From a virus, in IMG/VR virus record IMGVR_UViG_3300040815_004009, positions 1 to 26,031 of that record: DNA of 26,031 bases. One strand, 5' to 3'. Position 1 is the first letter of the stretch. Each line of letters begins with the position of its first letter. Of the stretch, positions 7,845-25,011 are shown in pieces. The translations under genes were made by a program, and so were the position numbers. The notes below the pieces were generated by a model that worked only from the letters and a program-made list of their open reading frames with translations, was not told where the DNA came from and did not search any database.

Positions 7845-10800
7845 TTAAATTTCTGCACCAGAATTTGTAACAACAAAATCTAAAGCAACAAACTCAACTG
7901 TTCTTGTAGGTTGAAGATATATTTTGCCTCTTATTGTATTATTTTCAATATCAGCTTGTGTTGTTGTAGTAGAATCAATTACCACCTTATATCTTGAAAC
8001 ACCATTTCTTTCTTGAACATTTTGAAGAACCGGCTCAACTAAAGCACTAAATTTACTCAATGTTGATTCTCTATTCGGTTCAAACAAGAGAGAATTAGCA
8101 ATAGTTCTAATTGATCTTCTAACACTTATAAGTAATCTTCTAACATTAACTCTGTCCAATGCAGAATCATTCGAGAGTAATGTTTTTTGTCCCCATATAA
8201 TAACATTAGTACCGGGAAAAGAAGTAATCGGATTAATATCTGCATCATACAAATTATCAAGGTTTGATCGATTTAATTTAACCGATGTTGTTTCCACAGC
8301 ATTTAAAGCACCTCTACTTTTTCCAGCGGGGGCGTTCCATGGCGCTGATACTTTGTCATTGAATGAATAACCTCCTAATACTGCGACTGACGGAGGAACA
8401 CTTACAAATGTATTTGTACCAGGATCTGTTATGGTAACGTCAGGGAAATATGCAGCTGCAAAAGATGTATTAAGATTTCTATCTTTAAAGCTGTTAATTG
8501 TATTTTTAACGTGAGGTGTTTGAACTGAAGATGTAATCACAGAGTTAACCTGATCTCTTTCTTCAATGTCAATTAAGTATAAACAATCAAATCTATTTTC
8601 AACAGCTGAAATTGCATAATCTGTAATAACAGAATTTCTAATTCCTGGTATTGCTAATAATTGAATATTTGTATCTGAAGTTGAACCCATAATATCAACT
8701 GCTTTTCTATATGCTGCAATTGTAGGTCCTGAAGTTCCACCTTGATTTGCTGAATCATCAATTTCATATTTAGCTGCATTATTTGATAAGTTAGCTTTTT
8801 CTTGATTGAATATATTAACTCCATCAAAACCACCTTGTGCAAAGAATGTAAACTTAGCAAACTTTCTATTTGCTACTACGTCTAAATCTTCTACCTTGAA
8901 TGCACGAGTTTTATTAGCAGCATTGACAGCGATCACACCATTTCTTACATAAGAAGCACTAACCCAATATTCAGAATCAGCAGCTGTTTGTGTTGCATCT
9001 GAATTAGAACCGGTTCTAACTTGAATATTTTCCAAACTAAACTTATTGTAATTAAATAAGTCTGCGTCTAAAACAGAACCGTTAACATTAGCAGCGCCTT
9101 CATTATCACCTACAAAAACTGCAGTTGTATCTTTTCGATGCGTTGGAAAATGTACCTGATAATTTTGTGTGACGGGAGTTAAAGAAGCTAATGCGTCATT
9201 AGTTGTAATTAAGTTAGGTTGTGTTGCATTAATTTTTAATGTTGATTGAGCACCCCAGAAAAGATTTGAATTAACCTTTTTGTTGATTCCGGTACCTAAA
9301 GTTATATTTTCTCGATAAGGTACAGGAGGCTCAATAATTCTTTGTAATAGATCAGTTGAAGAATAAAGACCATCAGATTCACCAGACAATAAAGAACCTG
9401 ACGTTACTAAGTGTTTTGGTCCTCGATAACCAACAGGTAAAGATTCATCAGGAATATTTCTATTAGCAACGTCTGGGTGAATTTGTACTCTTATGTATCT
9501 AGAAAGAACTGGATGTGTTCCTTCAACAACGATTTTTTGAGAATCTAAAGAAGTATCAAAATCAAATTTTGCGTATTGATCACCAATTCTTCTACCGATG
9601 TAATTAACTGAATCCGGATTTAGATCTAATCCTCTAAATGATTCTAAAACTACTTGTTCGTCATCATTATCTCCGCCTTTTCTGACCAAGAGATCAAATT
9701 TACCAAATTTATTAACATTTGAAGTTGATCTAACAATATTTGTAATTGAAAATTTAAAATCATCAGCAAATCCTGCACCTGCACTTAAAGCAACAATTTT
9801 AAATAGATTATAAGGACGATTACCGAATTTCTGTGATAATACATATGGAGTTTCAGCATGAGAGAATCTATCTTGAAAATCTTCATAATCAGGTATGCTT
9901 CCATCTGTTGCTGCAGCTCTTCCTAAAGAAGATGACAACAAAAATGCGATATCTTCATGATTACCAAGCGCTGATCCTTTTGAAAAATGCCCTGCAGTAA
10001 CGACTCCTGATCCTGTAATCGTTGCAACATTACCATGAAGTGGATAGTGATTATAAAGTAAATGTCCTGCTTCTTCAAGTTTTAAAGGATCAGTATTTAA
10101 AACACGTGTTAGATAGTTAGGTGCAATAGGATCAAAAGATGCAGTCAAAACATTAGGATATGCTGACGTATTTTTATGACCATTTAAAAGCATGACAAAT
10201 TCTTCTTTTCCAGATCTTAAATCAATAGACCCGGTTAAAGAACCTTCTCTTCCCATGAGGACGCCAGCCGCAGATGCTGCTGTATCTGAAGTACCTGGTG
10301 CATCAGAACCATTTGCTGCTGAATTTCCACTAAGATGAAGAATAACGCCGCTTGGAGCAAGAAGAACACCACGAAGAATAGGAGCAGCTGCATTAGATCC
10401 GGCTGTTTGTATTCCAGCATCTGAAAATATTGTTGAACCATTTGATTCTGACATAAAGCAGCCTAAGAAGTAAGTTCTGCCTTTTACTGCTCCTGCACCT
10501 GAATTTGCATAAGGGTTGTCTTGAAGCAACCCGTTATTTTGTACGTTTCTGTCTCCTACGAAGTATCCTGCATTTGTTACGATACCTGTTGTGGTATTTC
10601 TTTGTTGACCATTTCCTGCGCCTAAAACTCTAACGAAAGTGGCAGAACCTGCATTTTTAAGCCATTCATTAACTGCTAAAGGGCCAAATTTAGCACCGTC
10701 AGTTGCACCAAAAAGAGTTGTAAAATCATTAAAGTTTCCAACAGTTATGGGTACAAAAGCAGGTCCTTGATTAGCTGTTCCAATTACACCTGCAGGTACT

Positions 10801-10883
10801 CCAGAAGGTGAGGAAACAGAAGGTTGGGATAAATCTATTTCTCTTGTGCTAACGCCTGCTGATTTAAATGTTAACTCTGCCAT
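7845..10883 (-). CDS. 18: Tail sheath protein A (T4 gp18-like), 1012 aa
   Basis: The N-terminus FKSAGVSTREIDL, followed by GVPAGVIGTANQGPAFVP, then FGPLAVNEWLKNAG and FVRVLGAG, is the typical beginning of contractile phage sheath proteins. The C-terminus has the conserved core: GYSFNDKVSAPWNAPAGKSR, LYDADINPI, IIWGQKTLLSNDSALDRVNV, RRLLISVRRSIR, TTQADIENNTIRGKIYLQPT and VEFVALDFVVTNSG. The conserved C-terminal domain contacts the tail tube and links neighbouring subunits. With 1012 residues it is much larger than T4 gp18 (659); residues ~110-680 hold the variable surface-exposed insertions. It is a clear paralogue of the gene upstream at 10918, with near-identical ends and divergent middles. 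The start has GGAG about 9 nt upstream. Confidence 0.94.
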   Translation of the reverse strand: MAELTFKSAGVSTREIDLSQPSVSSPSGVPAGVIGTANQGPAFVPITVGNFNDFTTLFGATDGAKFGPLAVNEWLKNAGSATFVRVLGAGNGQQRNTTTGIVTNAGYFVGDRNVQNNGLLQDNPYANSGAGAVKGRTYFLGCFMSESNGSTIFSDAGIQTAGSNAAAPILRGVLLAPSGVILHLSGNSAANGSDAPGTSDTAASAAGVLMGREGSLTGSIDLRSGKEEFVMLLNGHKNTSAYPNVLTASFDPIAPNYLTRVLNTDPLKLEEAGHLLYNHYPLHGNVATITGSGVVTAGHFSKGSALGNHEDIAFLLSSSLGRAAATDGSIPDYEDFQDRFSHAETPYVLSQKFGNRPYNLFKIVALSAGAGFADDFKFSITNIVRSTSNVNKFGKFDLLVRKGGDNDDEQVVLESFRGLDLNPDSVNYIGRRIGDQYAKFDFDTSLDSQKIVVEGTHPVLSRYIRVQIHPDVANRNIPDESLPVGYRGPKHLVTSGSLLSGESDGLYSSTDLLQRIIEPPVPYRENITLGTGINKKVNSNLFWGAQSTLKINATQPNLITTNDALASLTPVTQNYQVHFPTHRKDTTAVFVGDNEGAANVNGSVLDADLFNYNKFSLENIQVRTGSNSDATQTAADSEYWVSASYVRNGVIAVNAANKTRAFKVEDLDVVANRKFAKFTFFAQGGFDGVNIFNQEKANLSNNAAKYEIDDSANQGGTSGPTIAAYRKAVDIMGSTSDTNIQLLAIPGIRNSVITDYAISAVENRFDCLYLIDIEERDQVNSVITSSVQTPHVKNTINSFKDRNLNTSFAAAYFPDVTITDPGTNTFVSVPPSVAVLGGYSFNDKVSAPWNAPAGKSRGALNAVETTSVKLNRSNLDNLYDADINPITSFPGTNVIIWGQKTLLSNDSALDRVNVRRLLISVRRSIRTIANSLLFEPNRESTLSKFSALVEPVLQNVQERNGVSRYKVVIDSTTTTQADIENNTIRGKIYLQPTRTVEFVALDFVVTNSGAEI

Positions 10884-10917: not shown

Positions 10918-13900
10918 CTATTCAAAACTTACACCTGAATTTGTTATAATAAAGTCTAGTGCAATGAACTCAACCGCTCTTGTTGGAACCAAAACAATTC
11001 TTCCGTTTAGTTTATTTTGCTCAATATCAGCCTGAGTATTATTTGTATCATTCATTATAACTCTAAATTGTTCAATTCCTTGCTGGGACTGAATTAATGC
11101 AAGTTGTGGTGTCACCACCGATACAAAGCCATCTCTAGTAGCTTTTACATTTTGTTCGAAAATAATATTGTTTGCTGCATTTGAAACAATTCTCTTGACT
11201 TCCAATAACATTCTTCTTACATTAACTCGATCTAATGCTGATCTGCTTTTTTGTAGTGTTTTTTGTCCAAAAATTACAAAGTCATTAATATTGAAATTAG
11301 CAATTGGATTAATTCTAGATTCATAAAGTAAATTACGATCCTCAGTATTTAATCTTACTTTTGTATTAATAACGTTTTCTAAGCCACCTCGATTAAAACC
11401 AGCTGGTGCAAACCAAGGAAATGAAACTGCATCATTATATCCTAAAGCGCCTAACGCCGCAATAGAAGCAGGTAAATTAACTGTACCTCCATCTTCTTGT
11501 GCATATAGTTTAATAATGTCAGGAAAATATGTTGCAACATAGTTGTTATCAATATTTCTTCCTTCAAATTGCTCAATCGTCTTTCTAACGCTAGGTCTAT
11601 TTGTAGAATCATCATAAAGACGACTAGTACTAGAATCATAGTTTGCAATATCCATTAAATAAATTGCTTTGCTATACTCTTTAACTTTGTCAATTGCATA
11701 ATCTGTTACGTTTGAGTCTCTAATACCTGGAACAGATACAATATTAACTCTTGATTCTAATTCATCAGTTATTATTTTAATACCTGCACGATACGAGTTA
11801 ACTGCGTTATTCTCAGTGCCAGCGCCAGGTGAAGAAACAGATTTTAAATTTTGATATCCTAATGCGTCTCCAGCTGCTTTTCCTCCTGCATCTTGTGAAC
11901 TTGCTTTATCATTGATATAACGTTGGTCTTTATCAAGAATATTCACACCATCAAAACCACCAAAAAGAATATTTGTAAACTTAAGGTAATTAGTGAATTG
12001 ATTAAACTTAGTAGCTGAATTACTAGCTGCTAGAGATGCGAGAGTTAAACGACGTGTGTATGTTCCTTTATCATTAATGGTATAATTAGGAGATACAATA
12101 GACGCATTTCTGATGTAAGCAGCTTCTCTGATGTGTGAGTCTATAGTTCCTGTAATTTCAGTTGAAATAGCAGTTTCAAGAGTATCGGTTGCATCGCTTT
12201 GATTATTTAAAGCAACTTTTGCTAATGTAAACTTATTATTGTGAAATTCATCTGCTGCCGAACCAGTGACTAAAGCATCTAGTTTTGCAATCCCTAACAT
12301 TTTACTATAGGAATCGATCAGTTCGTTTCTTAAATCTGATGCCGCATTTGATCTTAATAAAGGATCTGTCGTTTTGCTTAATACAGGAACTCGCGAATTT
12401 TTAATACCCCAATAAATTCTGGAATCAGCTAATTCCAAGTCGCCAGGGAAACCTGTAAATGTAGATGTAGAATTAGCTTTATTTCTTGTTGCTTTAAATG
12501 TAAATGGAACTGGAGGTACAATTGCATATTCTAAAAAGTTATTACTCATTGTTCCAGCTGCAAAACTTAATCTTTTTTGATCTGCGCCTAAAGCTAAAGT
12601 TGTTGTAGAATCAGTTAATGTATCAGACGTTTTTAATGCAGGCAATCCTCTGAATCCGAAAGGTATTGCATCTTGAGGAATTTTTGCATCTTCAACATCA
12701 GCTGACATGATAATTCTTACATAATTTGATTGATTGCGTCTTTTTCCTGATACATTAATTCTTTGCTCAGACTCAGACTCAGCATCAAAATTGTAGTATT
12801 CTTTAAGATCACCAATTTTGTTAGCAATATAGTTTTCATCACCAGGATTTAAGGTACATTGAGGATATCTTTCTAATACAACAGGATCTAAATCTGAATC
12901 ATAATAATCTCTTACTTCAACTGTAAAGCTTCCGTATGGATCATTTGAGTCTGTTGATCTTTTTATATTTGATATCGATATTTTAACTCTTTGATTTCCT
13001 GCTTCGCCATCGTCTAAAGCTTCGAAATAAAATAAATCATATTCTTTATCACCATAAGGTTGAGATATAAAATATGTCGACTTAGCAGTTTGATATCTTG
13101 TATTAAAGGAACCAAATATTTCTCTAAAGTATAATGACGTATCTCCAGAAGTTGATGATGTATTTTGAGATCCGGATACCACAGCAACAACATCATTTGT
13201 GCCGTCTTTTTTAATTTTAGCAATTTCAGATTCCATTGGGAAATCTGCATAAAGAAGATGTTGTTCGTCTTGAAAACGGTCTGGATTCTTGTTAAATATT
13301 TTACCAACATAATGTACACTGTTAGGATCTAAAGAAGCAGTGTAAATTCGAATACCAGCTTTACCTTCATCGTTACCAAATGTAGTCCCTAATGCAGATG
13401 AAAGAACTAATTTGAACATACCTTCTTCAGGGGTCCCGTCATAAGATCTAATATGTGCGGAATCATTTGCAGTTTTTCCTCCCGCAGGATAAAACTCATT
13501 TTCATCCATTACTTCTAATCTAGCACCGGATGCTAATAAAAACATCGAACGAATTAATTGAACGTCAGTTTGACTTTTTGATTGATTATCAGTAAAGATA
13601 GGATAACCAGCTGCTTCAGCTGAATCAACTTGATGAATACCAGCAAGAAATTGTACAGCACCAACATCTCTTACTTCTCCGCTTGGAGCAACTGTAGGTA
13701 ATGACCCGCTTAATCGAAAACCTGCATTTTTTACTGTTCCTTTTGCCGCTGTATTTTGTATATCTGTAATTGTTAAATTTGCACCTGCACCTAATACTCT
13801 AACATAAGTCAGTGCACTTTGGTTTTTTAAGAATGCTTCTGCAGCATAAGGACCAAATCTTTCTGCTGATAATTTTCCGAACTTATTTTTAAACTCATTT

Positions 13901-14049
13901 ATAGACCCAACTGTTTTTGGAACAAATGCTGGTCCTTTCTCAGCGGTTCCTACAACACCAGCTGGAGTCCCAGAAACACTAGTTGTTCTCTCAGTTAAGT
14001 CTATTTCTCTTTCAAATACTCCGGGGGATCTAAAGGTTCTCTCTGCCAT
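10918..14049 (-). CDS. 18: Tail sheath protein B (T4 gp18-like), 1043 aa
   Basis: This second sheath gene begins with FRSPGVFEREIDLTER and GTPAGVVGTAEKGPAFVP, then FGPYAAEAFLKNQ and YVRVLGAG. It ends with the conserved core: GYNDAVSFPWFAPAGFNRGG, LYESRINPI, FVIFGQKTLQKSRSALDRVN, RRMLLEVKR, NTQADIEQNKLNGRIVLVPT and VEFIALDFIITNSGVSFE. It shares these end segments closely with the 1012-residue gene downstream but differs in the central insertions (~110-730). Both copies appear intact and under coding constraint. The sheath contracts on infection; two types could form a mixed sheath or one could occupy a special ring position near the neck or baseplate. AGGAG lies 8-9 nt before the ATG. It follows the gp15-like gene, so the order is tail terminator, sheath, sheath, tube. 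Confidence 0.94.
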   Translation of the reverse strand: MAERTFRSPGVFEREIDLTERTTSVSGTPAGVVGTAEKGPAFVPKTVGSINEFKNKFGKLSAERFGPYAAEAFLKNQSALTYVRVLGAGANLTITDIQNTAAKGTVKNAGFRLSGSLPTVAPSGEVRDVGAVQFLAGIHQVDSAEAAGYPIFTDNQSKSQTDVQLIRSMFLLASGARLEVMDENEFYPAGGKTANDSAHIRSYDGTPEEGMFKLVLSSALGTTFGNDEGKAGIRIYTASLDPNSVHYVGKIFNKNPDRFQDEQHLLYADFPMESEIAKIKKDGTNDVVAVVSGSQNTSSTSGDTSLYFREIFGSFNTRYQTAKSTYFISQPYGDKEYDLFYFEALDDGEAGNQRVKISISNIKRSTDSNDPYGSFTVEVRDYYDSDLDPVVLERYPQCTLNPGDENYIANKIGDLKEYYNFDAESESEQRINVSGKRRNQSNYVRIIMSADVEDAKIPQDAIPFGFRGLPALKTSDTLTDSTTTLALGADQKRLSFAAGTMSNNFLEYAIVPPVPFTFKATRNKANSTSTFTGFPGDLELADSRIYWGIKNSRVPVLSKTTDPLLRSNAASDLRNELIDSYSKMLGIAKLDALVTGSAADEFHNNKFTLAKVALNNQSDATDTLETAISTEITGTIDSHIREAAYIRNASIVSPNYTINDKGTYTRRLTLASLAASNSATKFNQFTNYLKFTNILFGGFDGVNILDKDQRYINDKASSQDAGGKAAGDALGYQNLKSVSSPGAGTENNAVNSYRAGIKIITDELESRVNIVSVPGIRDSNVTDYAIDKVKEYSKAIYLMDIANYDSSTSRLYDDSTNRPSVRKTIEQFEGRNIDNNYVATYFPDIIKLYAQEDGGTVNLPASIAALGALGYNDAVSFPWFAPAGFNRGGLENVINTKVRLNTEDRNLLYESRINPIANFNINDFVIFGQKTLQKSRSALDRVNVRRMLLEVKRIVSNAANNIIFEQNVKATRDGFVSVVTPQLALIQSQQGIEQFRVIMNDTNNTQADIEQNKLNGRIVLVPTRAVEFIALDFIITNSGVSFE

Positions 14050-17227: not shown

Positions 17228-17890
17228 CTATTTTTTTGAAAAATAATCTCGCAACCTGCTAATTATTCCTTTATTATAACCAGGCGTTACTTCTTCATCG
17301 TCTATAAACGTTCTTTCTCCGCCTTCTTCGTCTTCATAAGTAATTACACTAGGGCCTTCAACTTCATACGAATCTTCTGTATCTTCATCGTCTTGAAAAA
17401 ATTCTTGTTCCTGATATCTTAAATCTTCTTCAGTATCTTCATCATCAAAATCAAAGTCGCCTAGACCTTGCATTGTAATTTCAGGGTCATCAACAGACTT
17501 TTCATTCGGTCCTAAATAATGTTGTTTTTTATATCTTCTAACAGCAGCTTGATCATAAGGATCCGGATCATGGTAATCATGAACAGTTGTAAATTTATCA
17601 CCTTCCAAATTTCCTTCTTCATCAACGCCTGGCCCAAATGTTAAAGGAGGAAATTGTCCTCGATCACTGCCTTTCCTAAAATCTGTGATTGCTTGTGCTC
17701 TTTTCTCAGGACTCATTGGCTGCCTACCGCCATGTTGTCTCATTTGATTAGCCATAAAAGTATCACCAACTTCTGTTTGCTCCAACTCATCAGACAATAC
17801 ATCATCAACTGTTTCACCTTTAGGATCTGTTCCTTCTTCATTTAGGAATCTTTCAATTAACATGTTGAGATCTTTTCTTTTTATTTTCAT
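17228..17890 (-). CDS. Acidic protein with N-terminal capsid-targeting-like tag (220 aa)
   Basis: The protein begins MKIKRKDLNMLIERFLNEEG, one of the tag sequences shared by eight proteins here; L-I-E (11-13) and L-N-E (16-18) both fit the prohead protease form [IL]-x-E. The rest is hydrophilic, with a very acidic segment from ~130 to 200 (FDFDDEDTEEDL, FFQDDEDTED, DDEEV) and a short basic end (RLRDYFSKK). No enzyme motif, cysteine or membrane segment is seen. Its ATG overlaps the stop of the preceding open frame as ATGA, so it is translated as the last gene of the accessory operon. A packaged, possibly nucleic-acid-mimicking or scaffold-core protein would fit, but function is unknown. Confidence 0.72.
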   Translation of the reverse strand: MKIKRKDLNMLIERFLNEEGTDPKGETVDDVLSDELEQTEVGDTFMANQMRQHGGRQPMSPEKRAQAITDFRKGSDRGQFPPLTFGPGVDEEGNLEGDKFTTVHDYHDPDPYDQAAVRRYKKQHYLGPNEKSVDDPEITMQGLGDFDFDDEDTEEDLRYQEQEFFQDDEDTEDSYEVEGPSVITYEDEEGGERTFIDDEEVTPGYNKGIISRLRDYFSKK

Positions 17891-18270
17891 TCTCCGCCTC
17901 CATCACCACCAAAGTCGCCGCCAAAATCGGCAAAATCATGATCATGGTCTATCCCATAACCACCTAAATACCAATACTTAGGCTTTTTCTTTGATGCTTT
18001 CTTTTTCTTTTTACCTTTTCTTTTCTTGTATTTTCTTTCACCTAATAACGATTCTTCTTCATGACCAACGACACCATGTTCATCATGTTCGTCAACATTA
18101 TCATTGCTGTCTTTTACTTTTTCTAAAAGACGTGCAGGTATATTTCTTTCAATCGTCCCATCAGGCCATTCAACATCGTAAACAGCAACGTGACCGCTTT
18201 CATTTAAAGAGTGCCAAAGAACATAACCAACTTCATTTAAAGAAGAACCCTTCTTCCGAACATGAGTCAG
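17887..18270 (-). CDS. UGA-separated, in-frame extension of the 96-aa gene (no ATG)
   Basis: After the TGA of the 96-residue gene (18271-18273), the same frame stays open for 127 codons without any Met codon and ends in an ATGA overlap with the 220-residue gene. The translation looks like real protein: RKKGSSLNEVGYVLWHSLNE, then VAVYDVEWPDGTIERNIPAR and LLEKVK, a Lys-rich basic stretch, and a C-terminus with HDHDFADFGGDFGGDGGGE. Possible explanations are UGA readthrough producing a 224-residue protein, a non-canonical start (CTG directly after the stop), a recent nonsense mutation, or a sequence error. The ATGA coupling to the next gene, like the other junctions in this operon, argues that ribosomes reach its end. 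The two SLNE copies repeat the [IL]-x-E pattern seen in the tags. Confidence 0.5.
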   Translation of the reverse strand: MTHVRKKGSSLNEVGYVLWHSLNESGHVAVYDVEWPDGTIERNIPARLLEKVKDSNDNVDEHDEHGVVGHEEESLLGERKYKKRKGKKKKKASKKKPKYWYLGGYGIDHDHDFADFGGDFGGDGGGE

Positions 18271-18561
18271 TCAGGTGTGTCCTATGATATCATCTGCTTT
18301 CTTTTGGTCATATTGATCAGGTAGATGTTCTAGTCCGTATGTATGGCCTTGTTCTTTGCTTACATAAGACAAACGCTTAAGCTCTTCCTGCATTTGTTTT
18401 TTTGTTAATTTATTAATTGCATCATCAATATCTTCGTCAGACGCTTCTGGGTTGTCCTGTTTAATACTTTTTTCTAAATCTTCTACTTTTTCTTTAGTAT
18501 CATTACTTGCAACAACAACTTCTAAAATTATTTTTCTTAATGCACTTCTTGTTATTTTCAT
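18271..18561 (-). CDS. Small tagged protein (96 aa), possibly N-terminal part of a larger product
   Basis: It starts MKITRSALRKIILEVV, a clear copy of the shared N-terminal tag with I-L-E at residues 12-14. The rest is helical and charged (KEKVEDLEKSIKQDNPEASD, EDIDDAINKLTKKQMQEEL), followed by YGLEHLPDQYDQKKADDIIG. The ATG overlaps the TGA of the 379-residue gene upstream (ATGA). It ends with TGA, after which the frame stays open to 17890, so it may be the upstream part of a longer protein. No known domain. Confidence 0.68.
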   Translation of the reverse strand: MKITRSALRKIILEVVVASNDTKEKVEDLEKSIKQDNPEASDEDIDDAINKLTKKQMQEELKRLSYVSKEQGHTYGLEHLPDQYDQKKADDIIGHT

Positions 18562-19697
18562 CTTTTATGTCCTTTATTTATTAATAATGATTTTTGTGCA
18601 ACTGCTTCGTCAAATGTCATTATCTGTCCTTGATATCCTGCATCACGAAACATTTTTTCATATTTTTCGTTTTCTTTACCATGATTTAAAATAATTGCTT
18701 TCACAGACCAATTATCAACTAACGCTTCATTTCCAGGTATTGCTGAATCTGAGCCGGCTGCTTGATCAAATCTAGGCAAATAGTCTTCTTTGTCTAAAAC
18801 AACAGGTGGTTCGCCACGTGAAGTTTGAGGTACACCTCGAGGTGCATCAGGAGCTTGTTTAAAATGTTCGAAACCCGGATTTTGCAAATAATTTGACCTG
18901 GACATTGCAGGAGATTTAAATCTCTCTACACCTCTAATATTAACAACTGTTTTATTAACACCCGATGATTTAGTTCTATCTGTTCCTGCGTAGGGCCTTT
19001 CAGCTCTTCCACGTTCTATCGCTTCATCTTCCCAGTCTAGCAGATCAGGATTACCTTCGATCCATGGTTCATATCCCTTTTGAGAAGAAAATGCCTGAAC
19101 ATAGTCAGAACCTTTTCCAGAATATACGTCATCTTGATTGTTTGCAAAATAAGTTATATGTCCATCTAAAATCATTGCTGTTTTTAACACTTGGATTTTA
19201 TTTTTGGTAAAATCTTCAGGGGCTAATGCAACAGAACTTAATTCATAATTACCTTTTTGTGCCTTAATATTTTTTAAAACCTGGTCAGGTGAAGCATAAT
19301 GAATTAAAATTAATTGATTCATAAAGTTGGGATCAACATATTTTCTAAAAAGCTGCTTCATCATTCTACCTCTTTTAGTCGCAGCTCTAATTGCTTCCAT
19401 CGCACCCATAAATAACGCTTCTTCAGATTCAATGTATTTATAAGGTTTTCCCATATAAGTTGTTTCTTTTTCAACATCTTTAGTTGCATATATTGCTTTT
19501 TTATCATCAAATAAAGATTTTCCTGAAGGTGATAATTCTTTTTCCCCTGGCATTCCGAACCGATCTATGTTAAAAACACCTTTTTTTTCTGCTTCTTCCG
19601 GAGTTAATCCTAATTTAATCATATCGTTAGCAAAAGCGATTCTTTTTTCCAAACTTTCTCGAATTAATTGCCTTAATTTACTTATAGATAATTTCAC
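18558..19697 (-). CDS. Tagged protein of unknown function (379 aa)
   Basis: The N-terminus MKLSISKLRQLIRESLEKRI carries the shared tag, with I-R-E at 12-14. A first region (~20-90) contains GLTPEEAEKKGVFNIDRFG. The centre (~127-230) has QLILIHYASPDQVLKNIKAQ, then NYELSSVALAP and WEDEAIERGRAERPYAG. The C-terminus (~325-372) has DNWSVKAIILNHGKENEKYE and a final FDEAVAQKSLL. The 'IHYAS...VLKNI......LS' segment faintly recalls the start of some ADP-ribosyltransferase-type folds ('H-[YF]-T-S...L..I'), which would parallel the packaged T4 Alt protein, but the resemblance is too weak for a call. Both ends overlap neighbours as ATGA, within the accessory operon. Function unknown. Confidence 0.72.
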   Translation of the reverse strand: MKLSISKLRQLIRESLEKRIAFANDMIKLGLTPEEAEKKGVFNIDRFGMPGEKELSPSGKSLFDDKKAIYATKDVEKETTYMGKPYKYIESEEALFMGAMEAIRAATKRGRMMKQLFRKYVDPNFMNQLILIHYASPDQVLKNIKAQKGNYELSSVALAPEDFTKNKIQVLKTAMILDGHITYFANNQDDVYSGKGSDYVQAFSSQKGYEPWIEGNPDLLDWEDEAIERGRAERPYAGTDRTKSSGVNKTVVNIRGVERFKSPAMSRSNYLQNPGFEHFKQAPDAPRGVPQTSRGEPPVVLDKEDYLPRFDQAAGSDSAIPGNEALVDNWSVKAIILNHGKENEKYEKMFRDAGYQGQIMTFDEAVAQKSLLINKGHKR

Positions 19698-20827
19698 TTT
19701 TTATAGCTCCCGTTCTTTTTTCTTTTTCGAGTTGTTATTTTTTGGCCTAATGCCCTATTTTTGCTGCGAGGAATAATTCTTAAGTTTGATAAATCGTTAG
19801 ATCCGCCGTGCGCTATAGCTGTTTTATGATCAATTTCATATCCCTTTGGTATTTCTATCCCTAATTCATTTTTAATCTTTCGTCCAGCTGCGTTTCTTTG
19901 TGCACGTTCTCGCTTAGCTTTTTTTGAACTATGATATTTCTTATAGGATTTTTTATAATCAACCTTTTTCTTTTTACTCTTTCTTTTTTCTTGTATTAGT
20001 TCAGACTTATCTAATTCAGCTTCTAAATTTTCAATATCATCATGCTTAGGTGAATTATCTGGTAATGTTAATTCGTCTTCTTTAACATCTAAAGTTAAAG
20101 AAGATTGGCTTGGTGCAAAACTTCTAACCATCACATCTAATTCAGACATGATTTGTTTAACTTTTTCTTTATTTCTTGACATGTAAGCATATGCCAATTC
20201 TTTTAATTTTTTTCTAAATTCTGGTTGTCCTAAAACATAACCGGCTGATTGTACAAACAAAGTTAATGCATCTTTCTTTTCAATTGCATCATCAGTTGCA
20301 CTCATCATAATATTAGTTATGTTATCTATCATATTGTTAATTCTTTGATAATTCTTTTTTCCTATTAACATTTTAAATAAAAATCCTGCTATTTTTCTAA
20401 AAAACGAATAACGAGATAAAAACAATGCAATTGAACCCATAATAACTGGGCTAGTTAAAACAGGAATTGCAACAGGTATTAATATTGCTAATACGCCTTC
20501 CCAGCCTGCAGATATCAATGCAATATGAACTGCAGTTGCACAAACTGCTTTTGTTATGCCTAGGTAAGTTGCCCATTTTCCAAAATTTGTCTCTATCGAC
20601 ACATTGCCAGTTTCAACTGTTATATCATCTGTTTCGATTCTAGGACCGGACACTTGAACGTTAAACTCTTTTATCAATTCTAGATTATATCCTTCTTTTA
20701 ACAACTGGATTCTTTTTTCTTGTATTGATAATCTTTTTTCAACCAGATCTTCTATCGTATCTTCTTTTTTTGAGTCAAGAATAACAGACTCAGCAAGTAA
20801 ATTTAATTGTTTTTTTGTAATTTTCAT
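19694..20827 (-). CDS. Tagged membrane-segment protein with C-terminal HNH nuclease domain
   Basis: Four parts can be seen. (1) The tag MKITKKQLNLLAESV, with L-A-E at 11-13, and more [IL]-x-E sites at 35-37, 43-45 (followed by G) and 52-54. (2) Hydrophobic segments at ~86-137 (for example VLAILIPVAIPVLTSPVIMG), probably two membrane passes or a membrane hairpin. (3) A helical linker ending in ELIQE at 276-280. (4) A very basic C-terminal domain (281-377) with GYEIDHKTAIAHGGSNDLSN, LRIIPRSKNRALG: the His of DH (334), N348 and N357 fit an HNH/HNN metal-dependent nuclease. ATGA overlaps join it to the lysozyme upstream and the 379-residue gene downstream. A protein that is packaged in the head, inserts in or crosses the membrane, and cuts DNA is a reasonable inference; a homing role is less likely because of the tag. 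Confidence 0.8.
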   Translation of the reverse strand: MKITKKQLNLLAESVILDSKKEDTIEDLVEKRLSIQEKRIQLLKEGYNLELIKEFNVQVSGPRIETDDITVETGNVSIETNFGKWATYLGITKAVCATAVHIALISAGWEGVLAILIPVAIPVLTSPVIMGSIALFLSRYSFFRKIAGFLFKMLIGKKNYQRINNMIDNITNIMMSATDDAIEKKDALTLFVQSAGYVLGQPEFRKKLKELAYAYMSRNKEKVKQIMSELDVMVRSFAPSQSSLTLDVKEDELTLPDNSPKHDDIENLEAELDKSELIQEKRKSKKKKVDYKKSYKKYHSSKKAKRERAQRNAAGRKIKNELGIEIPKGYEIDHKTAIAHGGSNDLSNLRIIPRSKNRALGQKITTRKRKKNGSYKK

Positions 20828-22047
20828 TTTTTCTTTCTCATTCTTTGAGTTTTCTTTTTGCTAGCTGCTTTTCGTTTTTTTGCATAATCATATGCTTTTT
20901 TCAATCTCTTTTTTGTATCCGGATCTTTAGCATTTTGATATGCTGCTCGAACCCTTTGATGCACCAAATTAATTATTTGAGACTGCCTATTATGTGATTT
21001 TGATTTAAAACTTTTTTGCGAAAATGTCTTTCTAATATCTGAAGCCGTTCTAAATTTTACTGGAACTGTATCTTTAGGATTTTCGTCTGTATACAACCTT
21101 CGACCTGATCCTTTTGGTTTTTTACCTGTTCCTACTTTTGGATCACCTTCTTTTAAAACACTTTTTTCATCATCTTTTTTGTTAAGATAATTATTGTTTT
21201 TAAATATTTCTAATTCTCTCTTTCTTCTTCCTTTTAAACCACCTAGCTTTTTACTAGTTCTAGCTTCTAAAAAGGCTTTTTCAAACTCACTGCCTGATGT
21301 TATTCCTTTACTAATAAATTTTTGATGCAGACTAGTCTTAATATATCCGCCTCTACCTGCATTAAAAATTATACTAGTTAATGCATCAAATTGATTTTGA
21401 TCTAACTTAAAAGGAATTGTTATTTTTTCGCTAACAGAATCTTTAGTTGACTGTTGCAATAAGGAAGCAGCATCGCTCAAATCAGATTTAAGTAAATTTT
21501 CTGCATAACCCTTATCTATTGTTTGTTTTCTTTGACTTTTTTGATTGCGACCGTAACCTATTGTTAAATTTCCTACACCATCATTATAAGATTTAAGATA
21601 AGGTTCTCCTGTTGCAACTCCTAATCTATTAACTTTTCCTTCTTCATATTTCATCCAGACAATTAATTTTTCACTAGGTTTTAAATCTTTATTTAATCGC
21701 TTTAAAGCATCAGGAATTATTATTTTTTGACCTAGTTGTAATGAATTAGGATTTAAATCAGGATTTGCTTTTTGAATCTGACTAGTTGTTACGCCATATT
21801 TTTTCGCTATCTTACCAAGATAATCGCCGGATACTATTGTATGTTCACGACCTTCCTTTAAACTTTTTCCTCTTTCAATTGCACGAAGTTGCGCCAATGC
21901 GCGTTTATAACTTAAAGGTTTTTTTGACAAAGCACGACGACGCTTCTCTCCCTTGCGAGGTTTTTTAGGGTAAACTTTCCATCCACCCTTTACTTTGCGT
22001 ATAACCTCACGAATTAAAAAACGAAGTTGTGCTTCAGTTAATTCCAT
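20824..22047 (-). CDS. Tagged LysM-lysozyme (GH24, T4-type) with conserved C-terminal domain
   Basis: Order of parts: tag MELTEAQLRFLIREVIRK (I-R-E at 12-14); a basic segment with GGWKVYPKKPRKGEKRRRAL and LSYKRALAQLRAIERGK (21-61); LKE-G at 63-66; a LysM peptidoglycan-binding domain at ~68-112 (HTIVSGDYLGKIAKKYGV to GQKIIIP); a T4-type lysozyme domain at ~124-290, with catalytic E136 (KYEEG), D156 (YNDGVGN) and T162 (TIGYG), matching T4 E11, D20 and T26; LKE-G at 298-301; and a C-terminal domain with GTGKKPKGSGRRLYTDENPK and FKSKSHNRQSQIINLVHQRV, which I recall as a conserved domain of unknown function in giant viruses and marine phages (possibly DUF5872). It cleaves peptidoglycan, in entry or lysis. 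The tag and lack of a signal peptide suggest a packaged virion lysin rather than a classical endolysin. Eight nt follow the previous stop, with only a weak ribosome-binding site. Confidence 0.9.
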   Translation of the reverse strand: MELTEAQLRFLIREVIRKVKGGWKVYPKKPRKGEKRRRALSKKPLSYKRALAQLRAIERGKSLKEGREHTIVSGDYLGKIAKKYGVTTSQIQKANPDLNPNSLQLGQKIIIPDALKRLNKDLKPSEKLIVWMKYEEGKVNRLGVATGEPYLKSYNDGVGNLTIGYGRNQKSQRKQTIDKGYAENLLKSDLSDAASLLQQSTKDSVSEKITIPFKLDQNQFDALTSIIFNAGRGGYIKTSLHQKFISKGITSGSEFEKAFLEARTSKKLGGLKGRRKRELEIFKNNNYLNKKDDEKSVLKEGDPKVGTGKKPKGSGRRLYTDENPKDTVPVKFRTASDIRKTFSQKSFKSKSHNRQSQIINLVHQRVRAAYQNAKDPDTKKRLKKAYDYAKKRKAASKKKTQRMRKKK

Positions 22048-22055
22048 TTATAAAA

Positions 22056-22397
22056 TTAACAACGTGAAAGAATATCTTCACAGCATTCTCGAATCAATGC
22101 CTTAGTTTCCGGACAATCACAACATTCAATGAGGCAAAGAACAGCCTTGCAGCAATCTTCTTTTGAAACTTGTCCTTTATGACCACCTACATAATCAACA
22201 TGTGATGATTGCATGCTATGATCACCATGATCTTCGTATTCATCACACTCACAAGGAGACTTGCCACATGCATCACACCCATGCGGGTTTTGATATGGAG
22301 AATGTCCTATCATTGCTGCACCCATAGGTGCCATTCCCATCATTTTAAATTCTTTTAAGAGCATTCTTTTTAACTGCTTTCTGTTTAACTGAGACAT
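22056..22397 (-). CDS. Cys-rich tagged small protein (113 aa)
   Basis: The start is placed at the ATG at 22397 (MSQLNRKQLKRMLLKEFKMM) because GGAGG lies 8 nt upstream; a longer reading from an upstream TTG would put that GGAGG inside the coding region. The N-terminus is a tag variant with L-K-E at residues 14-16. A Met/Gly/Ala-rich stretch follows, then CDACGKSPCECDEYEDHGDH, a metal-binding-like cluster, and a C-terminal half with CCKAVLCLIECCDCPETKAL and RECCEDILSRC. It has 13 cysteines in 113 residues, very unusual for a phage protein made in the cytoplasm. It opens the accessory operon and precedes the lysozyme by 8 nt. It could bind metal ions (zinc, copper) or form an Fe-S or disulphide-linked fold; the function is not known. 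Confidence 0.75.
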   Translation of the reverse strand: MSQLNRKQLKRMLLKEFKMMGMAPMGAAMIGHSPYQNPHGCDACGKSPCECDEYEDHGDHSMQSSHVDYVGGHKGQVSKEDCCKAVLCLIECCDCPETKALIRECCEDILSRC

Positions 22398-22485
22398 CTC
22401 TGTAACCTCCAAAATATATGTCCTTAATAATTATCACCTAATACCTTAAAGTATCACATAAACTAAGCAGTAGCTTCTTGTAAAC

Positions 22486-22515
22486 ATAAAAAAAGACACC
22501 CAAGATGAGTGTCTT
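22486..22515 (-). terminator. Intrinsic terminator after the 124-aa gene
   Basis: On the minus strand AAGACACTC-ATCTT-GGGTGTCTT forms a 9-bp stem (one G-U pair) with a 5-nt loop, followed by a T-run (TTTTT). It starts 24 nt after the stop of the 124-residue gene, separating it from the Cys-rich/lysozyme operon. Confidence 0.85.
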
Positions 22516-22538
22516 AATAATAAAATTATTTAAATCAA

Positions 22539-22913
22539 CTATGAAAGAGTTTGTCCTTGTGGGCACCAAACCGGTGTTGATTGAGAAGAATCCCATACAC
22601 ATGTAACGGTAGAACCTGGTACAAACGTTCTGTCTGTCCCAGTAGATCCTGACAAACCAGAACTAATTTGTGCAGCAAAGTCAACAGTTTTAGTTCCTCT
22701 ATTTTGTAAAATAATCGTCTGACCATCTACGCTGCCAGAAGTTAACAAAACACCAGTTGCAGCTGCAGCAGCTGTAAACGGAATTAAATACCCGTCAGTT
22801 TCTAATGTTCCTCCAGTAGCTATAGCTTGAGATGCACGAGGTTGAATAACAACAATCTTACCTGACGATTGAAAAAGGCCTTTTGCACTTGGATCAAATG
22901 TAATTTTTGGCAT
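22539..22913 (-). CDS. Small probable virion protein (head decoration or fibre-like), 124 aa
   Basis: The sequence is rich in G, S, T, A, V and Q and looks all-beta: MPKITFDPSAKGLFQ, then GYLIPFTAAAAATGVLLTSG, VDGQTIILQNRGTKTVDFAA, TFVPGSTVTCVWDSSQST and PVWCPQG. The last part, a 'PGSTVTCVWD....PVW' strand pair, is common in small decoration and fibre-type phage proteins. No membrane segment or signal peptide. A strong AGGAGG lies 6 nt before the ATG, a GC-rich leader able to fold precedes it, and an intrinsic terminator follows, so it is set up for high single-gene expression like an abundant virion protein. This is an inference; no specific family is recognised. Confidence 0.65.
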   Translation of the reverse strand: MPKITFDPSAKGLFQSSGKIVVIQPRASQAIATGGTLETDGYLIPFTAAAAATGVLLTSGSVDGQTIILQNRGTKTVDFAAQISSGLSGSTGTDRTFVPGSTVTCVWDSSQSTPVWCPQGQTLS

Positions 22914-22940
22914 AATATCCTCCTATAGGTTCGCAAGATT

Positions 22941-22980
22941 CCGACACGCTGGCGAGTTCAGCTTATTATGCATGTGCCGG
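22941..22980 (-). promoter_or_regulatory. GC-rich, foldable 5' leader of the 124-aa gene
   Basis: On the minus strand CCGGCAC (22980-22974) can pair with GTGTCGG (22947-22941), a 7-bp helix with one G-U pair, enclosing ATGCATAATAA and a nested GCTG-AACTCGC-CAGC hairpin. The segment is clearly more GC-rich than its surroundings and ends 28 nt before the start codon. It may stabilise the mRNA or regulate translation. The fold is by eye only. Confidence 0.4.
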
Positions 22981-23007
22981 GCCTAATATTAAATATTAAC
23001 TAAAATT

Positions 23008-23223
23008 TTATTTTAACAATCTTTTTGTAAAACCATGATTGTCATAATTTAATAAAGCTTTCCAAATCTTATCAACTCTTGGATCTGCTCCACCACCTTT
23101 TGGTGCTTTTTTAAGTTCTGCTTTAAGAGCTGCAACTTCTTTTTTCAATGCTGCGATTTCTTTGTGCAACAATTCACAATCTTTTTTACAATCGTGTGCT
23201 GCTTCTTCTTTTTTTGTAGGCAT
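23008..23223 (-). CDS. Small coiled-coil protein (71 aa)
   Basis: The middle is a heptad-repeat coiled coil (LLHKEIAALKKEVAALKAEL, residues ~19-38) preceded by a Cys pair (DCKKDC), and followed by a Gly hinge (KGGGADPRVDKIW) and a C-terminal helix (KALLNYDNHGFTKRLLK). The start has AAGGAG well placed (AAGGAGAATATTATG). It lies 94 nt upstream of the 124-residue gene and diverges from the exonuclease gene. An oligomerising structural or scaffolding protein is plausible; I recall similar small 'coiled coil + GGADPRVD' proteins in marine phages, but no function. Confidence 0.7.
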   Translation of the reverse strand: MPTKKEEAAHDCKKDCELLHKEIAALKKEVAALKAELKKAPKGGGADPRVDKIWKALLNYDNHGFTKRLLK

Positions 23224-23300
23224 AATATTCTCCTTATGTTAAAATAGCCGTTAATAAATATAATTATATCATAAATAAAGAAAGTTATAAAGGAGAGTAT
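23224..23300. promoter_or_regulatory. Divergent promoter region
   Basis: This 77-nt gap separates the minus-strand coiled-coil gene from the plus-strand exonuclease gene. It holds overlapping -10-like hexamers on both strands: TATAAT at 23259-23264 (plus) and at 23268-23263 (minus). A near match to the T4 late element (CATAAATA) is at 23270-23277 (plus). -35 boxes are poor. The divergent gene arrangement itself requires promoters here. Confidence 0.45.
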
Positions 23301-24230
23301 ATGAATAACATGAAACAAATCTTGACAGAATGGCGCAAATTCCTAAACGAAAGATCAGTCGATCCTAGTTTTTATCCTCCTCAGTTCTCTGAAATGATTA
23401 AAAAGCTTAAAGAACTTGCACAACATAACTGGGTTTTCTTCGACACAGAAACAACAGGTCTACCAAATAAAGACGGATCAGTTCCAAATTTTGTTCAAAT
23501 AACTCAACTGGCAGCCATAGCATACAAAACAAATAATCTCGACCAAATACCTTCTCCTGTAAACGACGGAATGTTCAATGTTAAAATAGTCTTAACACCA
23601 GACACAGAAGCTGAAATAAAAAATCAACAAGCACAGCTAGACGCAGGAACTTATAAAGGCGATCCTAAATACTCGATTCCAGGTCTTTTAGACATGAATG
23701 ATTATTATGGCGGAGAAGATGTACCGCGCGTTAATCAAGCAGATGGTGCTGAAATGTTTAATCAATATATACAAGCACAAAAAACTGCCAGCCCAACAGG
23801 TAAGCTGGTCTTTTGGGCCCACAATTCTCCATTTGATGCAAAAATGACAAATCTTTTTTATCAAAGAGGTGGTTTAAACGCACCAGATATTGCTGTGATG
23901 GATTCAATTGCAATTATTGATAATTATCTAAAAGCTGTACTGCAATATGTACAAAAAAATGAAACTGAAATAAACGCTGAAGATAAACACATTATTGACA
24001 GCATTACGGCACTATCTTATAAAGGAAAACCTTATCTTGCTAGCCGGCTTGGTATGATGGCGACAGCATTTGAAATTGATAATGAGTCATGGCATGAAGC
24101 AACTGCTGATATTGGAATGACAATGGAAGTACTTTATAAAACATTGCAATATCTTCAAGACCCAAATAGAGGTGGTCGATTTGCGGTTGATACACTTAGA
24201 CCTAAATACCCATACAGAAGGAGAATGTAA
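23301..24230 (+). CDS. DEDDh 3'-5' exonuclease with N-terminal tag
   Basis: The protein has the three exonuclease motifs: FFDTETTG (D48, E50), AHNSPFDAKM (D179) and WHEATADIGMTMEV (H265, D270), giving the full DEDDh set of the DnaQ/epsilon-like superfamily that removes nucleotides from 3' ends with two metal ions. Insertions lie between motifs I and II (~90-160) and between II and III (~190-255). Ahead of the domain is MNNMKQILTEWRKFLNERSV, a tag variant with L-N-E at 15-17 that closely recalls T4-type internal protein signals. It lies on the plus strand, opposite to nearly everything else, with GGAGAG before the ATG, and its TAA overlaps the next ATG (TAATG). A role in DNA repair or degradation, acting after injection if the tag is a capsid signal, is inferred. 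Confidence 0.88.
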   Translation: MNNMKQILTEWRKFLNERSVDPSFYPPQFSEMIKKLKELAQHNWVFFDTETTGLPNKDGSVPNFVQITQLAAIAYKTNNLDQIPSPVNDGMFNVKIVLTPDTEAEIKNQQAQLDAGTYKGDPKYSIPGLLDMNDYYGGEDVPRVNQADGAEMFNQYIQAQKTASPTGKLVFWAHNSPFDAKMTNLFYQRGGLNAPDIAVMDSIAIIDNYLKAVLQYVQKNETEINAEDKHIIDSITALSYKGKPYLASRLGMMATAFEIDNESWHEATADIGMTMEVLYKTLQYLQDPNRGGRFAVDTLRPKYPYRRRM

Positions 24231-24568
24231 TGAAACCTAAAGTAATTATTAGCCCACGTTTTTGCAAAGCAATGAGCCTTTTTATTGATGTTTATGCGAT
24301 TACGTTATACCCGTTTATTATTGCAAAAGAACAGCTTGATATTACTATATATAACCACGAAAAGATTCACCTCGTTCAACAGAGAGAACTCTGGGTGGTA
24401 GGATTTTACCTTCTTTATATATGGTATTGGCTTAAAGCAAGATTTAAAGGTTTGAACGGAGCTGATGCGTATTATGCCATTCCATTTGAGAAAGAAGCAT
24501 ATACGCATCAAAAAAATTTAGGTTATCTTAAAACAAGAAAACCACATGCATGGCGTGATTTTTCCTAA
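24230..24568 (+). CDS. Small HExxH metallopeptidase-like protein with membrane segment
   Basis: A 112-residue protein whose core is YNHEKIHLVQQREL (H43-E44-x-x-H47, the zincin motif), then a hydrophobic segment VVGFYLLYIWYWL (~56-68) and FEKEAYTHQKN (E87 or E89 as possible third zinc ligand). The 'NHE.IH..Q..E...FY..Y....' pattern with a later 'FE.EAY' occurs in small uncharacterised proteins of bacteria. A metallopeptidase or at least a metal-binding fold associated with the membrane is likely; activity is not shown. The ATG overlaps the exonuclease stop by 1 nt (TAATG), so the two are coupled. Its stop overlaps the stop of the convergent minus-strand gene by 3 nt. Confidence 0.7.
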   Translation: MKPKVIISPRFCKAMSLFIDVYAITLYPFIIAKEQLDITIYNHEKIHLVQQRELWVVGFYLLYIWYWLKARFKGLNGADAYYAIPFEKEAYTHQKNLGYLKTRKPHAWRDFS

Positions 24569-25011
24569 GGTACTAAAGGACCTGGATAAACATCATCATC
24601 GTCGTCATCAAAGTCAAATTCATCATCTGCTAAGGGTGATGTGCTTTTTGTAAGCTTTGGTAATCTTATCTTGCTTCCTGGCGTATCATGGAAAAGTTGT
24701 GTTCCTAATTCTCTTTTTGCATAATCATAAAAGTTTGTATCAACTTCTGATAATGCTTCAGCAACTTTTTTCAATTGCCATTCATGACCAACAGCTTTAA
24801 CAGTTTCAAAAAATGTCATAGCATCCATCCCGGACATTTTCATAGTACTTTGGATTGAAGCATTTGTAACAAAATTCCAATCGAATCTTCTGCCCCACAG
24901 ATGGCCAAAAAGTTGGCTAAGATTAGGTCCAGAGCTAGTATACCTACCTTCTTGTAAGTTCCTAATTTCGTTTAAAATCATTTTTCTTAGTGAATTCCTA
25001 TTTAATTTCAT
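24565..25011 (-). CDS. Tagged protein with acidic tail (148 aa)
   Basis: The start is placed at the ATG at 25011 (MKLNRNSLRKMILNEIRNLQ), with AAGGAG about 8 nt upstream; a longer in-frame reading from 25038 would put that site inside the gene. The N-terminus is a good copy of the shared tag, with L-N-E at 13-15 and L-Q-E-G at 19-22. The middle is a compact, Trp/Phe-containing helical segment (LFGHLWGRRFDWNFVTNA, FFETVKAVGHEWQLKKVAEA, NFYDYAKRELGTQLF). The end is very acidic (DDEFDFDDDDDDVYPG). No known family. It converges on the HExxH gene, with overlapping stop codons and no visible terminator. Confidence 0.72.
   Translation of the reverse strand: MKLNRNSLRKMILNEIRNLQEGRYTSSGPNLSQLFGHLWGRRFDWNFVTNASIQSTMKMSGMDAMTFFETVKAVGHEWQLKKVAEALSEVDTNFYDYAKRELGTQLFHDTPGSKIRLPKLTKSTSPLADDEFDFDDDDDDVYPGPLVP

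Follow-up and report, generated by a model that had tools for sequence, protein, structure and literature searches.

A common N-terminal tag was found, beyond what chance would give, on seven of eight nearby genes in a 26,031-nt window of viral DNA (the whole of the stretch analysed; IMG/VR record IMGVR_UViG_3300040815_004009, positions 1 to 26,031), and it is highly probable from the sequences that this tag is a capsid-targeting propeptide, a signal directing unrelated proteins into the phage head. Its removal by the prohead protease is likely by analogy with T4, and the balance tilts, less firmly, towards most of the tagged cargo acting in the host. The window belongs to an uncultivated, contractile-tailed phage, with profile matches to a tail tube, two tail sheaths, a baseplate hub and a head-tail adaptor. 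The eight genes are named here by their 5' starts (17890, 18561, 19697, 20827, 22047, 22397, 23301+ and 25011), and both the starts and the tag sequences given in a preliminary description of the window were borne out by a check of the open reading frames (ORFs). An [IL]-x-E motif was present in every one of the eight tags, at residues 10–18 (about 11–18 in that description), and past residue 24 the proteins displayed no mutual similarity (best blastp E value of 0.12), in agreement with the claim that their bodies are unrelated. The 22397 and 25011 genes are each nested in a longer ORF with a TTG start (at 22412 and 25038, respectively); the ATG starts were preferred because GGAG-type ribosome sites lie upstream of them. 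Wider counts were made in G001, a near-identical 141-kb contig (IMGVR_UViG_3300021964_000018, 141,038 bases), part of which is 98–99% identical to the window, two alignment gaps excepted, and in which 157 genes were called. Gene calling was by a simple longest-ORF script, and where several starts were possible the best-scoring one was taken.

The tag was scored with a 12-column weight matrix built from the eight window tags (the seed matrix), in which the E of [IL]-x-E is unscored, at a strict score of at least 15 or a looser one of at least 10. At the looser score, 26 of the 157 G001 genes were tagged, compared with 0.24 expected from internal segments, two of the 26 looking false by eye. The strict score was reached by 22/157 genes including the eight seeds, and by 14/149 with the seeds removed, against 2/3,191 internal methionines pooled from three genomes, 0/77 genes of lambda, 0/47 of T7, and 0/1,066 and 0/839 non-redundant genes in T7-type and lambda-type loci, respectively (80 loci of each type). 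The lambda, T7 and locus controls were treated with the same best-start procedure as G001, and the internal-methionine control had one start each; the query gene was 99–100% identical in the lambda-type loci, which include host DNA, and 70–100% identical in the T7-type loci. At the looser score, matches were obtained for 9/1,066 genes of T7-type loci, 12/839 of lambda-type loci and 2/77 of lambda. The objection, anticipated in the preliminary description, that the tag might be a common random helix failed on the strict comparison of these loci with the non-seed genes of G001. To guard against circularity, the eight window N-termini and 5,000 null segments were also scored with an independent matrix, derived from 16 tags of G001 genes that lie beyond the window. 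Seven of the eight scored above every null segment; the exonuclease-like protein of 23301, beginning MNNMKQILTEWRKFLNE, scored 3.4, with 126 of the 5,000 as good or better, and is therefore not shown to carry the tag. The excess is thus real for seven of the eight genes, and the earlier claim of a tag common to all eight holds for those seven. A third, W- and R-rich tag type, prompted by the exonuclease, was not clearly enriched (15/1,280 N-termini, several of them from capsid genes, vs 41/6,060 internal methionines). Tagged G001 proteins outside the window gave no Pfam match above cut-off (17 proteins) and one PHROG match, to a family of unknown function (1.7e-13; 13 proteins), the weaker candidate at 118859 being left out of both scans.

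Head targeting had been made to depend on the presence of a prohead protease, and one is encoded by G001 (Peptidase_S77, 3e-26; PHROG head maturation protease, 1.4e-52), together with a T4-type portal (7e-71) and major head protein (2e-40). These three, identified by profile, stand in the gene list in the order of a T4-like head module, in which the terminase and scaffold are putative, assigned by their place in the module and by the gene order annotated in Microcystis phage Mel-JY01. The tag had also been proposed as something to look for in prohead core genes, and it was found on the two small genes directly after the G001 protease, which are taken to encode prohead core proteins (core-1 and core-2). 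As the same helix occurs on many unrelated proteins and on two proteins beside the head-maturation protease, its role is very probably that of an address label for entry into the head; the protease itself, the excess over controls and the tag beside the protease all support the head-targeting interpretation first offered.

This linkage was evaluated in other phages with an alignment of four proteases, three of them 42–47% identical to that of G001, from which 80 loci of other phages were taken out of at least 593 relatives among 600 stretches. In the 78 distinct loci, 38/250 genes starting 0–2 kb downstream of the protease were tagged at a score of at least 10, compared with 33/870 elsewhere, and 40 of the 63 loci with enough sequence have a tagged gene (score of at least 8) within 1.5 kb downstream. 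The first post-protease gene, core-1 (..LKxIVKECLVEILxEG), was recognised in 35/80 loci and core-2 in 21/80, each with a pattern of which the tag forms part. Because core-1 genes were picked by a pattern containing the tag, its conservation among them is partly built in; of eight invariant columns in 17 aligned core-1 proteins, five fall within the first 23 residues, a distribution partly favoured by this selection. AlphaFold2 modelled core-1 as a confident helix at residues 5–23 followed by disorder (mean pLDDT 68, pTM 0.31), so that the predicted end of the helix coincides with the second [IL]-x-E. A profile of core-1 N-termini from other phages only matched 15/157 G001 genes at E ≤ 1 (13 tagged genes, core-1 among them, and two not counted as tagged), with 1/824 internal 40-mers matching as a control, and a core-2 profile matched 6/157 genes, all of them tagged, plus one internal piece. 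Separately, the presumed scaffold (L031:17151-18632) and core-1 share a C-terminal W-x-x-LA[FG] motif, perhaps a common capsid-binding tail.

The end of the tag resembles that of a T4-type signal. For the 50 non-seed tags, an [IL]-x-E was found no more than 14 residues past the scored core in 46, compared with 25% of 1,101 untagged genes, and across all 58 tags the near [IL]-x-E position was filled in 78%, vs 22% on shuffling. Of the four [IL]-x-E in the window lysozyme, those at residues 5 and 14 belong to the tag and those at 65 and 300 fall at domain borders, and the 379-aa protein has a single one, in its tag, where 3.8 would be expected by composition. Likewise, the sole [IL]xE of the 96-aa protein sits in the tag, and the 220-aa protein has two in total, both inside it.

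Behind the tag, the cargo differs between close relatives. G020 is a near relative (protease 91% and presumed terminase 81% identical) and G022 is a fragment; both have the same cassette, flanked by capsid and neck genes, in which the tags are retained and what follows them differs. The tag of the 220-aa protein is retained in the G020 and G022 orthologues, and G020 has a tagged protein of 282 aa to which the C-terminal part of the 96-aa protein gives a match. The last 107 residues of the window lysozyme (the DPKVG domain) form a separate tagged gene in G020 and G022, and so does the HNH domain, there lying directly behind a tag that ends LQE|K. To judge from these comparisons, cargo genes turn over fast behind a retained tag, and the lysozyme and membrane-HNH proteins of the window have the appearance of cargos that were fused and kept a protease site where they meet. 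A strict [IL]-x-E lies no more than two residues before the DPKVG domain in 9 of 13 distinct contexts, with M-x-E in one, an [IL]-x-E six residues off in two and none in one; these contexts were found by pattern in fetched loci, many of which had been fetched through the window lysozyme itself. For the HNH domain, an [IL]-x-E and a basic run directly precede it in 3/3 contexts, the window being one of them, and in L019 the DPKVG domain comes after a YPKK module that ends ALRE|G. The sequences thus lean slightly towards separation of the fused cargos by the protease. The basic DPKVGTGKKPKG domain (window 20827-21147) also occurs in many fetched loci, in L017, L020 and L023 as a fusion with other large proteins; it has no accepted Pfam match and is 49% identical over 71 residues to a match in Pelagibacter phage HTVC033P.

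When a profile of 24 G001 tags was run against 11 records, matches at E ≤ 1 were obtained in 10: 26 in G001 (its own tags by construction and two more), 31 in G012 (a 273-kb contig), 16 in LR756508.1 (a 484-kb phage record) and 10 to 1 in the others. The seed matrix at the strict score found 25/337 genes in G012 and 11/719 in LR756508.1, and twelve genes at 253–263 kb of G012 have a related MKxLRxYIRKILLTEA-like start, with scores of 8 to 15. Next to a tandem tagged run, G012 encodes a 532-aa protein (L165:9584-11182) that has a PAP2 phosphatase domain (1.1e-11) and whose start resembles the tag weakly. LR756508.1 also contains seven adjoining, apparently paralogous tagged genes (L054:17696-23575) with a MKFKELLKE-like start and a LYRGT-like motif; an ADP-ribosyltransferase assignment, prompted by a motif, was unsupported (best E value of 0.12 in a PDB profile search; probability of 0.2% in a comparison with T4 Alt), and another tagged gene of this phage gave a weak KptA-type match (0.016, under cut-off). 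A different start, MIKLKDLLxE, was observed in more distant protease loci (mostly L114-L152), on 39/1,280 N-termini, some of the 39 being near-duplicates, vs 4/6,060 internal methionines, and is perhaps the version of the signal that belongs to these distant protease-bearing phages.

The closest known counterpart is the capsid targeting sequence of T4, a short N-terminal propeptide with [LI]-x-E at its end, carried by the otherwise unrelated and variable cargo proteins IPI, IPII, IPIII and Alt and removed by gp21 (PMC12373910, PMC3012670, PMC9026906). According to these accounts, the T4 protease cuts after [LI]-x-E, the targeting sequence comprises residues 1–10 of IPIII (PMC9026906), the internal proteins Ip1-3 have only this N-terminal signal in common, are injected and block GmrSD enzymes, and at least ten internal proteins are reported from T4 and its relatives (PMC12373910). 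A T4-type protease, portal and capsid are likewise present in the tagged phage G001. Unlike the 10-residue T4 signal, the tag described here has 14–22 residues, is found on about 20 proteins of one genome, compared with three internal proteins described for T4, and occurs also on two genes beside the protease and on multi-domain cargo joined by [IL]-x-E. The best reading, by analogy, is that the tag works like the T4 internal-protein signal on a far larger set of cargo. In phage P1, N-terminal residues bring DarB into the head, 30 being sufficient, and no consensus is reported among Dar N-termini (PMC9024508), unlike the single consensus over about 20 proteins found here. In the giant phages SPN3US and phiKZ, a gp21-like protease processes many head-internal proteins, cleaving behind a short motif whose last residue is E; several of the propeptides described exceed 100 residues and only one in SPN3US is T4-like in length (20), in contrast to the short common helix reported here (PMC5694885, PMC9026906). 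Polyvalent proteins and head-packaged ADP-ribosyltransferases are also predicted multi-domain enzymes delivered with the DNA, and neither a shared address tag nor a protease joint was noted in the account of them (PMC9503650). In a literature search, made both with the tag strings and with descriptions of such a signal, nothing among the results listed was recognised as this tag, subscription journals being largely outside its coverage. Short packaging signals are thus known from T4, its relatives and P1, and a tag on cargo of this size and beside the protease is a new variant.

With T4 as the model, proteins bearing the 14–22-residue amphipathic helix would join the prohead core late in infection, recruited via the scaffold or via the core-1 and core-2 proteins that have the same helix. 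The gp21-like S77 protease would then cut after [IL]-x-E near the helix end, freeing mature cargo inside the head, and would separate fused cargos at their [IL]-x-E joints; DNA would be packaged around the freed cargo, which would stay among the DNA and enter the host with it, where an anti-host function may be supposed. The chances are about even that a large uncultivated T4-like group delivers 20–35 proteins per genome in this way, through one label shared with two head-core proteins, with the protease doubling as a polyprotein processor of fused cargos and the delivered set readable from sequence. If so, a genome scan with the tag found after the prohead protease would suffice to list the proteins that an uncultivated phage delivers, dozens of phage genes now anonymous could be regarded as candidates for early action against the host or its defences, and the tag itself could serve to load foreign proteins into heads. 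A further, testable idea is that a phage maturation protease may free several cargos from a single fusion protein.

Several observations weigh against this interpretation. Packaging and cutting are both predictions from sequence. The tag has no sequence match to the T4 signal (IPIII starts MKTYQEFIAE in its record), and the seed matrix found 0/55 genes in two T4 segments, for which reason no common descent with that signal is claimed. Most window genes were weak in the core-1 profile test, one with an E value of 0.035 and five with 1.7–9.4, the lysozyme and exonuclease falling outside the top 40. Among 50,697 phage records, core-1 gave only five weak matches (E ≥ 0.006), all in Arthrobacter phage tape-measure genes, as would be expected if the clade had no isolates in that set. 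No tag was found at the strict score in the protease-bearing G003 (0/126), G008 (0/77) and first 50 kb of Mel-JY01 (0/43), and the whole Mel-JY01 record had no match to the 24-tag profile; the idea that the tag marks all protease-bearing phages was rejected because these three lack it at the strict score. Extra [IL]xE, outside tags and joints, occur in the bodies of four of the eight proteins of the window, and avoidance of the motif in tagged bodies was weak and confined to the clade of the window (observed/expected 0.81 in G001, 0.73 in G020 and 0.85 in G022), the ratio being above 1 elsewhere (1.14 in G012 and 1.15 in LR756508.1). General avoidance inside cargo was not significant overall (97 observed vs 100.6 expected).

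The helix might instead dock proteins to the scaffold, the proteins acting in head building only and leaving with the scaffold, with no delivery to the host. Two tagged genes do lie in the head block, and the T4 core proteins encoded beside the protease are described as cut up and mostly removed from the head (PMC9026906). A LysM lysozyme, an HNH-like domain and, with its weaker tag-like start, the PAP2-domain protein of G012 are not obvious scaffold parts, however, cargo turns over fast between near relatives, and the 22 strictly tagged genes of G001 are many for assembly factors, making this alternative unlikely. An address to another site in the cell, such as the membrane or a replication compartment, would fit with the somewhat higher amphipathicity of the tags (a mean moment of 0.36 over 47 tags, vs 0.26 over 447 other N-termini). 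Nevertheless, the median tag moment is reached by 16% of untagged N-termini, so that amphipathicity alone is not special, and such an address would leave unexplained both the tag on genes beside the prohead protease and the recurrent [IL]xE at the helix end; it is considered very improbable. A DNA-level effect, through duplicated gene starts or a translation-enhancing 5' sequence, is scarcely credible, since despite a codon identity between tags of 0.62 (0.47 expected from codon usage), their nucleotide identity averages only 0.55, synonymous changes number 3 to 8, and other changes 1 to 6, among the 16 codons compared in each of five orthologous tag pairs, and the same peptide pattern is present in distant phages.

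The tagged genes of the window and the predicted protease joints are listed below.

Table 1. Genes considered for the tag and predicted protease joints in the window
Feature	Position	Strand	Remarks
Tagged 220-aa acidic protein	17228..17890	-	Tag MKIKRKDLNMLIERFLNE at 17837-17890
Tagged 96-aa protein	18271..18561	-	Tag MKITRSALRKIILE at 18520-18561
Tagged 379-aa protein, GTG start	18558..19697	-	Tag MKLSISKLRQLIRE at 19656-19697
Tagged 377-aa protein	19694..20827	-	Tag MKITKKQLNLLAE (20789-20827), hydrophobic middle, C-terminal HNH-like domain (19697-19987)
Predicted protease joint ELIQE|K, middle part/HNH domain	19988..19990	-	Compare G020, G022
Tagged 407-aa protein	20824..22047	-	Tag MELTEAQLRFLIRE (22006-22047), YPKK module, LysM and GH24 lysozyme, basic DPKVG domain (20827-21147)
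Predicted protease joint VLKE|G before DPKVG domain	21148..21150	-	Domain is a separate tagged gene in G020, G022
Predicted protease joint SLKE|G before LysM-lysozyme	21853..21855	-	Compare L019
Tagged 113-aa cysteine-rich protein	22056..22397	-	Tag MSQLNRKQLKRMLLKE at 22350-22397
Exonuclease-like 309-aa protein, start MNNMKQILTEWRKFLNE	23301..24230	+	Tag membership unsupported by independent profile
Tagged 148-aa protein	24565..25011	-	Tag MKLNRNSLRKMILNE at 24967-25011

The functions proposed earlier for three of these proteins fared differently. The lysozyme was confirmed by a Pfam Phage_lysozyme match (2.6e-17) plus LysM. The HNH nuclease was partly supported, with a PHROG match to a family of unknown function (2.4e-18) and weaker matches to HNH and endonuclease VII families, the Pfam score being under the cut-off (18.9 vs 21.4 bits). 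For the exonuclease, a PHROG match (2.7e-11) was accompanied by a Pfam RNase_T match just under cut-off. No family was assigned to the 220-aa protein by the Pfam and PHROG scans. The 379-aa protein gave no match of note in the PDB (best E value of 1.9) and no family was assigned; a pattern-based search for its relatives returned three loci only, all 98–100% identical, and a fold prediction from single-sequence AlphaFold2 was rejected as unusable (pLDDT 37). A small protein encoded at 24230-24568, which adjoins the exonuclease on the + strand, matches a PHROG family named protease (6.6e-25). The tail sheath genes of the window lie in tandem at 7845-10883 and 10918-14049, and the first encodes 1,012 aa, compared with 1,135 aa in G001, the alignment breaking at window 10388-10407.

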